A stretch of 37,373 nucleotides of DNA from a virus, in the IMG/VR virus record IMGVR_UViG_3300006920_000103, positions 1 to 37,373 of that record. One strand, 5' to 3'. The number at the start of each line of letters is the position of its first letter. Position 1 is the first letter of the stretch. This document shows positions 191-1,611 of the stretch, piece by piece. The notes beneath the pieces are model-generated. The model searched no databases and had not been told where the DNA came from. It saw nothing but the letters and a program-made list of their open reading frames with translations. A program made the translations under genes and the position numbers.

Positions 191-527
191 AGGTATGACA
201 TACGAAACAAAAGACAGTGGGGAGCGAGTAACGTACGAAAGTGGCTTTAATCGGGACGTGGCGCACAACAAGCCGAGGTACGATCTCATTCCACCAGCCT
301 CACTCAAACGACTAGCGGAGGTGTACATGCGCGGTAGTCAGAAGTACGGGGATGACAATTGGAAAAAAGCTAGCTCAGAAGAAGAACATCAGCGCTTTAT
401 TGCCTCAGCCTTTAGACACTTCGAGCAATGGCGTAATGGTGAACGAGATGAAGACCATGCCTACCAAGCCATCTGGAATATCATTGCGTACGAGTGGCAC
501 ATGGATAACAAATCCTATGAAAATTAA
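183..527 (+). CDS. dATP/dGTP diphosphohydrolase N-terminal-like protein (DUF5664 type)
   Basis: This 114-residue protein has the signature of a phage family annotated as dATP/dGTP diphosphohydrolase, N-terminal (formerly DUF5664): KPRYDLIPPASLKRLAEVY at about 30-48, then KYGDDNW near 55-61, an RHFEQW segment near 78-83 and a closing helix AIWNIIAYEW. Members are thought to act on purine deoxynucleotides, but no specificity can be read here. The GTG at 183 overlaps the previous stop; ATG 195 (MTYETK) is an alternative start. The last 11 bases overlap the methyltransferase start at 517. No PurZ-like partner is in the window, so a modified-base pathway is not implied. Confidence 0.7.
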   Translation: MIKGMTYETKDSGERVTYESGFNRDVAHNKPRYDLIPPASLKRLAEVYMRGSQKYGDDNWKKASSEEEHQRFIASAFRHFEQWRNGERDEDHAYQAIWNIIAYEWHMDNKSYEN

Positions 528-1611
528 ACACTACGACTTATTCGCTGGCATCGGAGGTTTCTCTTACGCTTTAGACACAATATTCAATGAACAAAAAAAC
601 GAACACATCTTCTGCGAGTGGGAAACCTTCCCAACAGCCGTCCTCAAAAAGCACTGGCCAGACGCAACATACTATGGCGACATCGCAGACCTTGTTACTG
701 ACACCAACAGCCAGCGAAACAGTAATGGACTTGGAAAAGTTCAAGAAGCGAATGGAGAAGTACCCAAACGGAACGACAATGCCAAATTTAGCAACTCAAA
801 TAGATCAAATGACATCACAATCGTCACAGGAGGCTTCCCCTGCCAACCATTCAGTCACGCTGGACGAAGAAAGGGAACGGCAGATGACCGCTACAAGTGG
901 CCAGAAATGTTTGCAGTCATTAGAAACGTCAGACCAGATTGGGTCATCGCTGAGAATGTTCGAGGCCTCGCTTCTTGGAACGACGGCATGGTTCTCGAAA
1001 CAGTGTGCGCTGACTTGGAAGCAGAAGGTTACGAAGTCAGGCCGTACATTATTCCAGCTTGCAGCAAAGGTGCGCCCCACAGACGAGAACGAGTCTGGAT
1101 TGTTGCACACACCAAGAACATTAATGATAGAGGAAACACCGGAGAACTTTCGAGCGAGGATGAACAGCAAACGTCCGAACGACAGGAAGAACGGACTGCC
1201 AAACTTAGCGGTACAAGTGAGCAGTATGAAAGTGCCACCGTTGCTACTAACGCCGTCAACAGTAGACAGGGGCGAACGAAGCGAGAAAGCAATGGAACAT
1301 CGGATAGCGTATCGCAAGAGTATAGGGCGCAAGACAGTACCTCCAGGGAGCCTGAGCGAGCAATTAGCGACGGGGACGACCACCGACCTTGGAACGCAGA
1401 CTGGCGAGAAGTTGCGCTTGCAACCTGCCATGACGGAGTGGATGATGGGCTTCCCCGAAGGCTGGACGGAGCTACCTATCGAGGAAAACCCACCGACTGC
1501 ATTAGTGCCGCGCAACATCGCAAAGACAGACTAAAGGCATGTGGTAATGCGATAGTACCGCAGGTAGCTATGGAGATATTCAGGGCTATAAAATCTGTGG
1601 ATAACCAATAG
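517..1611 (+). CDS. DNA (cytosine-5) methyltransferase
   Basis: A 364-residue C5-MTase that would transfer methyl from SAM to cytosine. Motifs seen: I (DLFAGIGG, residues 7-14), IV (GGFPCQPFS, catalytic Cys109), VI (ENV, 146-148), VIII (RRERVWIVA, about 189-197) and IX/X (KACGNAIVPQVA, GN at about 343). The frame is open further upstream to 352, but that part overlaps the previous gene and precedes motif I, so ATG 517 is chosen. Residues about 70-100 and 200-310 are hydrophilic, low-complexity Asn/Ser/Thr/Glu/Arg sequence where a target recognition domain would be expected. Those stretches coincide with the well-formed parts of the +1-frame protein at 587-1534. Sequence specificity cannot be predicted. 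Confidence 0.9.
   Translation: MKIKHYDLFAGIGGFSYALDTIFNEQKNEHIFCEWETFPTAVLKKHWPDATYYGDIADLVTDTNSQRNSNGLGKVQEANGEVPKRNDNAKFSNSNRSNDITIVTGGFPCQPFSHAGRRKGTADDRYKWPEMFAVIRNVRPDWVIAENVRGLASWNDGMVLETVCADLEAEGYEVRPYIIPACSKGAPHRRERVWIVAHTKNINDRGNTGELSSEDEQQTSERQEERTAKLSGTSEQYESATVATNAVNSRQGRTKRESNGTSDSVSQEYRAQDSTSREPERAISDGDDHRPWNADWREVALATCHDGVDDGLPRRLDGATYRGKPTDCISAAQHRKDRLKACGNAIVPQVAMEIFRAIKSVDNQ
587..1534 (+). CDS. overprinted phage protein of the 'TPTAS...WMMGFPEGW' type, inside the C5-MTase gene
   Basis: A 315-codon frame lies in +1 relative to the methyltransferase. It carries features I recognise from stand-alone phage proteins of unknown function that often sit beside C5-MTases: a GSSLRMFEASLLG block, CALTWKQK, QLAAKVRPTDENESGLL, and an end AMTEWMMGFPEGWTELP. 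It also has three degenerate repeats starting LLLTPTAS, LLHTPRTL and LLLTPSTV, the first two followed by an RM...NLA.Q(I/V) pattern. The start is uncertain: ATG 587 is the first, but the first 30 residues are low-complexity and ATG 674 (MATSQTLLLTPTAS) is as plausible. No ribosome-binding site is evident. Both frames look constrained, in alternating stretches. Function is unknown. Confidence 0.6.
   Translation: MNKKTNTSSASGKPSQQPSSKSTGQTQHTMATSQTLLLTPTASETVMDLEKFKKRMEKYPNGTTMPNLATQIDQMTSQSSQEASPANHSVTLDEERERQMTATSGQKCLQSLETSDQIGSSLRMFEASLLGTTAWFSKQCALTWKQKVTKSGRTLFQLAAKVRPTDENESGLLHTPRTLMIEETPENFRARMNSKRPNDRKNGLPNLAVQVSSMKVPPLLLTPSTVDRGERSEKAMEHRIAYRKSIGRKTVPPGSLSEQLATGTTTDLGTQTGEKLRLQPAMTEWMMGFPEGWTELPIEENPPTALVPRNIAKTD
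1596..1604 (-). other. DnaA-box-like site
   Basis: TGTGGATAA on the plus strand is a perfect reverse match to the DnaA box TTATCCACA. It lies in the last codons of the methyltransferase. A single box is weak evidence, but the same sequence recurs as an inverted pair at 35679-35708. Confidence 0.35.

Follow-up and report, generated by a model that had tools for sequence, protein, structure and literature searches.

The window analyzed here, the whole 37,373-nucleotide stretch of IMG/VR virus record IMGVR_UViG_3300006920_000103, contains a DNA (cytosine-5) methyltransferase (C5-MTase) gene with a second gene nested in its +1 frame. Both frames are coding and conserved, the methyltransferase motifs are partitioned between them, and the nested +1 protein is confirmed as real and conserved. 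On the best reading of the sequences, this protein (β) would be the MTase's own missing small (target-recognition) domain and not an unrelated overprinted protein, and we consider it very likely that the frame-0 product (α) and β form a two-subunit (heterodimeric) C5-MTase whose nested β gene is translated from its own start (Table 1). The overlap is real, general, and largely unrecognised in annotation; the enzyme would belong to a known class of split enzymes, in a form that is new and widespread.

Table 1 Features of the overlapping genes, named after the proposed two-subunit enzyme
Feature	Position	Strand	Remarks
α subunit, C5-MTase large domain	517..1611	+	frame 0; motifs I–VIII and X
Motif I (DLFAGIGGF)	535..561	+	frame 0
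Probable β start codon ATG	587..589	+	conserved in 8/8 nearest-clade members
β subunit, nested ORF, 315 aa	587..1534	+	+1 frame; PHROG 1008 family; LLxTP modules and motif IX
LLxTP module 1 (LLLTPTASETVMDLEKFKKRMEKYPNGTTMPNLATQI)	692..811	+	before motif IV in the window
Motif IV with catalytic PCQ	829..855	+	frame 0
β core (GSSLRMFEASLLGTTAWFSKQCALTWKQKVTKSGRTLFQL and flanks)	842..1099	+	overlaps α motifs IV–VIII; conserved; predicted helices and β hairpin
Motif VI (ENV)	952..969	+	frame 0
Motif VIII (GAPHRRERVW)	1069..1098	+	frame 0
LLxTP module 2 (LLHTPRTLMIEETPENF...)	1100..1240	+	
LLxTP module 3 (LLLTPSTVDRGERSEKAM...)	1241..1372	+	
C5-MTase motif IX in +1 frame (LQPAMTEWMMGFPEGWT)	1418..1468	+	hhalign
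Motif X (RLKACGNAIVP)	1528..1560	+	frame 0; extends beyond the end of β

The frame-0 product matched PF00145 (E 8.8e-41) and TIGR00675 (1.3e-37), and motifs I, IV (PCQ), VI (ENV), VIII, and X of a PF00145 C5-MTase follow one another in order. Profile alignment to M.HhaI covered motifs I–VIII, with the motif X piece aligning weakly. Motif IX and the target-recognition domain (TRD) are both absent from frame 0: where the TRD would be, the recognition region of α is a variable hydrophilic linker, and the missing motif IX is supplied in the +1 frame.

The +1 protein matched the PHROG 1008 profile (5e-24), which also matches 30 of the 30 members of A1. All of the patterns that a preliminary description had listed for it are present in the nested ORF, namely GSSLRMFEASLLG (941-979), CALTWKQK (1004-1027), three LL-TP repeats (LLxTP at 692, 1100, and 1241), and WMMGFPEGW (1439-1465); the motif IX pattern, LxPxxxxxMMGFPxxW, is placed after the LLxTP modules. 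Database searches with β gave no Pfam match (scattered weak hits only) and no match of its sequence profile to the PDB, and the motif IX block alone, which is too short, had no significant match among PDB chains. The AlphaFold model of β alone was poor (mean pLDDT 61; about 62-90 over residues 111-160 and low elsewhere) and found no fold match in the PDB.

Several lines of evidence indicate that both frames code. The +1 opening spans 319 codons, compared with a mean of 106 in synonymous permutations of the MTase, and none of 5000 permutations reached 319, which upholds the preliminary claim of a second protein in the +1 frame of the C5-MTase. A +1 frame no longer than in codon-permuted MTase genes, named in that description as the contrary outcome, was not seen in the window, and the opening exceeded permutation (p<0.05) in 240 of 242 homologues of the nested type, and in 0 of 20 ordinary C5-MTases used as controls. 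In 50 of 50 pairs, the +1 similarity to homologues was greater than in every synonymous permutation of the MTase frame, and the reverse test, in which frame-0 similarity was compared while synonymous codons of the +1 frame were scrambled, gave the same result in 50 of 50 pairs. The proposed check of synonymous-site constraint on homologues came out in the same direction, with frame-0 codons frozen in the overlap; across 227 aligned genes the excess codon information in frame 0 was 0.57 bits in 137 overlap columns, versus 0.15 bits in 7 columns without overlap (p 0.008) and 0.13 bits in 61 partly overlapping columns. Examples of frozen codons are Gly GGG (226/229), Asp GAT (179/179), and Ala GCT (220/226). 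Likewise, the Leu of frame-0 DLE is encoded by NTG in 199 of 208 genes, versus 26% among other Leu codons; NTG at this position yields the +1 Trp, and the invariant Trp of LTWK requires it.

The frame under constraint changes along the gene. In phase counts over 124 pairs, which are effect sizes and not p-values because the pairs are not independent, the third frame-0 codon position had the most differences over motifs IV–VIII and outside the overlap, whereas in the recognition region the peak moved to the first (position 3 of the +1 frame). For the NGT module, 69% of differences fell at +1 position 3, and amino acid identity was 85% in the +1 frame versus 49% in the MTase frame. Control frames had median z values of 0.9 to 3.9, compared with 6.5 for the +1 frame; since constraint on one frame carries over to the others, some excess outside +1 is expected. 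Constraint thus alternates as had been proposed, resting on the MTase frame over motifs IV–VIII and on the +1 frame over the recognition region.

Other features of the window lie opposite or beside this gene pair. A 237-aa antisense ORF at 805-1518 (− strand) matches phrog_38519 (6e-4), with a length p of 0.016 relative to permutation; it is probably a shadow or by-product of the doubly constrained sense strand, and antisense calls of this kind may also be what phrog_38519 consists of. The MTase is preceded by a gene (183-527, + strand) for a dATP/dGTP diphosphohydrolase N-terminal-like protein (PF18909, 7e-20); the end of this gene and the start of the MTase share 11 bases (517-527). The gene after the MTase (1642-2913, + strand) matches DNA repair exonuclease families (phrog_704, 1e-40).

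To assess the spread of the overlap, loci were recruited from IMG/VR and GTDB, using the +1 protein, its alignment, or the MTase as query. A tblastn search with the +1 protein matched 58 phage records, and in each of the first five examined the match falls in the +1 frame of an MTase. The +1 family overlaps an MTase in the +1 relation at 288 of 288 loci, a count that, given similarity-based recruitment and some duplicate contigs (248 distinct +1 proteins), means that these searches never met the family outside the overlap, and does not extend to MTases in general. There are 284 nested loci with motif X in frame 0. An ordinary MTase used as a query found nothing in viral contigs. Hosts among the genome matches include Bacteroidota, Bacillota, Proteobacteria, Dehalococcoidales, Pyrinomonadaceae, Verrucomicrobia, and candidate phyla, and the pair is rare per genome (12 of 369 sampled gammaproteobacterial genomes and 3 of 296 sampled Bacteroidota genomes, with the seed genome included in each set). 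The nested pair occurs in hundreds of phages and bacteria, and the suggestion that it is a general overlapping pair, which was to be examined by how often the +1 protein lies inside an MTase, is strongly supported. Stand-alone relatives of β had also been suggested; no free-standing β gene was found among the 288 loci, and the relatives that do exist outside the nested arrangement are staggered (partly overlapping) or fused in frame. The same +1 protein is already annotated as an MTase "internal gene" in the Paenibacillus larvae phages Diva (gp50) and Lily (gp63), but these records and that of PHROG 1008 ("DNA methyltransferase") give no function or link to motif IX, and no paper describing this overlap was found in the literature searched.

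These relatives bear directly on the identity of β. In Mycobacterium phages Daenerys (gp70) and prophiGD91-2 (gp27), a single ORF contains motifs I–VIII, LLPTP modules, an MMGWP motif IX, and a GNGV motif X; in Daenerys gp70, PF00145 covers residues 1-187 and phrog_1008 covers residues 346-542 of the same chain (2e-72). Locus L381 is likewise a single ORF with modules and motif IX, but with a GNAV motif X, and in several of loci L353-L361 one ORF spans motifs I–VIII, xPTP modules, and motifs IX and X, such that the variants in this single-ORF set are MMGW/LMGY for motif IX and GNGV/GNAV for motif X. Staggered α and β genes with motif X in β are found in Firecracker (gp6/gp5) and six other loci; Steamy (77/76) and Heather (35/36) are among the phages in which the second of the staggered genes holds motif X. 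In the staggered actinophage pairs each gene is annotated with its own start. When the +1 family was compared with 20 ordinary C5-MTases using hhalign, the only meaningful alignment found placed LRLQPAMTEWMMGFPEGWT on motif IX RRLTPRECARLMGF (P 0.0015). The link between β and motif IX is firm because the single-chain and staggered relatives bridge to the canonical motifs: the nested family aligns with the single-chain/staggered set at 3.1e-15, and the C-termini of that set align, at 2.8e-5, with motifs IX and X of ordinary MTases taken together. A model of the L381 single chain matched M.HhaI (Z 20.8, 192 residues, rmsd 2.8), a fit that rests mainly on the catalytic domain as the module region is of low confidence. 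Judged from sequence, the same parts exist in three layouts (single chain, staggered, and nested), and the window has the nested layout with motif X left in α.

Further actinophage variants were noted. In Arthrobacter phage HumptyDumpty, a 425-aa β-type protein (634-1911 of its locus) that combines numerous xPTP modules with motifs IX and X is encoded just 3′ of the MTase N-terminal gene with a short overlap, and its module array is among the longest seen. In Gordonia phage Lennon, an HNH endonuclease gene (536-1003, in another frame) interrupts the MTase ORF (159-1869) between motifs VI and VIII, an insertion likened to the ShiLan element (PMC11855218).

Given that weak +1 matches to the β profile occur in 2 of the 20 ordinary MTases (5e-6 and 3e-5), some shadow over motifs IV–VIII is evident, and the entire +1 frame could be imagined as a mere shadow of MTase conservation and codon bias that is never translated. 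We regard this as extremely improbable: it is contradicted by the permutation, codon-freezing, and phase tests, and it leaves unexplained both the in-frame homologues and why the +1 frame is conserved along the linker when frame 0 there is not. The phase test over the recognition region refutes it, as do the permutation results and the control MTases. Only marginally better placed, and still very improbable, is a β that is an unrelated phage protein, overprinted de novo and with a separate job such as anti-restriction or regulation. The lack of Pfam and PDB matches would suit such a protein, as would the N-terminal core over motifs IV–VIII, for which no homologue has been found so far outside the family and its overlap; the C-terminal half, however, has in-frame and staggered homologues, among them the single-chain MTases, where modules and motif IX lie in frame, and these are precisely the parts missing from frame 0. 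The preliminary view of the +1 product as a different phage protein therefore has to be replaced, since comparison with single-chain phage MTases identifies its C-terminal modules and motif IX as the MTase small domain.

With β taken as the small domain, its synthesis would involve ribosomes that initiate inside the α gene, without frameshifting. The ATG at 587 is kept in the 8 of 8 nearest-clade members although the frame-0 residue varies; no clear Shine-Dalgarno site precedes it in the window, and GAGGAGG precedes the corresponding ATG in locus L007. Across genes, a +1 ATG open to motif IV is present in 97%, versus 29% after synonymous permutation, and the best Shine-Dalgarno interaction reaches −6 kcal/mol or lower in 34% of genes versus 9% of permuted ones. 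Programmed ribosomal frameshifting would instead produce one α–β fusion chain (motifs I–VIII, then modules and motif IX) with no separate β, and we consider it unlikely. In-frame fused relatives do exist, and each of L030, L031, L045, L046, and L049 has an indel by which the MTase N-terminus continues into the β C-terminus; yet motif X remains in frame 0 behind motif IX, where a frameshift would strand it, so a single shift yields no complete enzyme, and separate starts are indicated by the annotated staggered actinophage pairs as well as by the enrichment of β start codons and Shine-Dalgarno sites over synonymous permutation. The evidence thus favours internal initiation over frameshifting. 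The indels in these five loci swap frames such that the MTase N-terminus runs into the β C-terminus with motif IX, and for L030/L031 the swap is seen in two contigs; they may be genuine fusions or artefacts of assembly.

In the two-subunit enzyme that we propose, one DNA stretch would encode both halves of a heterodimeric C5-MTase. α would be the large domain, responsible for SAM binding and catalysis through motifs I–VIII plus X with a filler linker between them, and β would be the small domain, composed of the core, an LLxTP array for reading the DNA target, and motif IX. The two would presumably assemble into one active enzyme, whose role in the phage is most likely protection of its DNA from host restriction. 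Such a pair could have originated from a single-chain ancestor by two frame shifts, one before the recognition region and a second before motif X; β would then be the old small domain placed out of frame, the frame-0 linker would be new, and the β core over motifs IV–VIII would be overprinted. The overprinting suggested in the preliminary description can be retained for the β segment over the catalytic motifs, where the +1 frame looks like the newcomer, but not for the recognition region, where it is the MTase frame that would be a derived linker; the +1 recognition part need not be de novo because it is homologous to an in-frame part elsewhere.

The LLxTP motifs themselves vary in number and placement. 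There are 0-6 after the core per protein, most often 2-3, and 39 of the 248 proteins have LLxTP motifs before the core. The module LLLTPTxxExxDLxKFKKRMEKYPNGTTMPNLATQ lies after the core (and motif VIII) in 28 loci and before motif IV in the window and L007, where it is apparently a transposed cassette; in the MTase frame, module 1 amounts to no more than filler inserted between motifs I and IV. Read in frame 0, LLxTP becomes V-A-D/N/Y/H-T/S, and 196 of 199 such frame-0 tetrapeptides lie on a +1 LLxTP, such that the VADT/VADS repeats of the frame-0 linkers in these MTases are a shadow of the LLxTP modules; the T/A-D/N-T runs previously said to correspond to the LL-TP repeats were correctly recognized. 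The position of the modules between motifs VIII and IX suggests that they read the DNA target. A bolder proposal, which we put forward tentatively and with slightly less than even confidence, is that nested β proteins are phage-wide swappable specificity subunits, with an overprinted docking segment over the catalytic motifs, in which each LLxTP module is a mobile target-recognition cassette read in the +1 frame and filler to α. If so, this would be a multispecific, fast-evolving methyltransferase with its recognition array hidden in an overlapping frame.

This is a large, old, and widely shared gene pair on one DNA, whose two frames appear to be complementary parts of one enzyme. Current annotation often covers one frame only, or names both "DNA methyltransferase", and in many phage methyltransferases the part assigned to recognition is consequently missing or misread; the MTase frame by itself would be an unreliable basis for predicting methylation specificity. 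The formerly puzzling "VADT" repeats of phage MTases are explained, and the three layouts, with the single-chain relatives as reference, offer a handle on how the parts of an enzyme come to lie in different frames and on the evolution of target recognition through exchange of modules.

Among known systems, the C5-MTases of Bacillus phages SPR and phi3T are multispecific enzymes whose single variable region strings together several target-recognition units. The LLxTP arrays are similar in having several units in a row in the variable region, but the SPR and phi3T enzymes are single-frame, and LLxTP modules are only putatively units with one target each. Daenerys gp70 and prophiGD91-2 gp27 share the modules and motif IX and also have motif X, but in them all parts lie in one reading frame. 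In M.AquI, α has motifs I–VIII and β has part of the TRD together with motifs IX and X (PMC3404938). The staggered actinophage pairs look M.AquI-type, with motif X in Firecracker gp5, whereas in the window β is nested and motif X is in α, so the small subunit lacks it. The closest precedent is M.EcoHK31I, which with its isoschizomer M.EaeI is a two-polypeptide C5-MTase (YGGCCR); Lee, Kam and Shaw in 1995 reportedly placed its small gene inside the large gene in another frame. Its large polypeptide carries motifs I–VIII and X, as well as the TRD, and its small polypeptide carries motif IX (PMC3404938). The window shows the same division, with a large polypeptide that has motifs I–VIII and X and no IX, a small polypeptide that carries motif IX by hhalign, and 587-1534 nested in 517-1611 in the +1 frame. 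A blastn search of E. coli genomes with a gammaproteobacterial relative found no match to an M.EcoHK31I homologue. As the features were compared by description and TRD placement differs, the window probably works like M.EcoHK31I and, by motif split and layout, is a probable relative rather than proven kin: in M.EcoHK31I the TRD is in the large polypeptide, whereas the LLxTP modules that take its place in the window are in β. What is new relative to M.EcoHK31I is the LLxTP module arrays in β, with 0-6 copies after the core across the nested family, and the scale on which the arrangement occurs.
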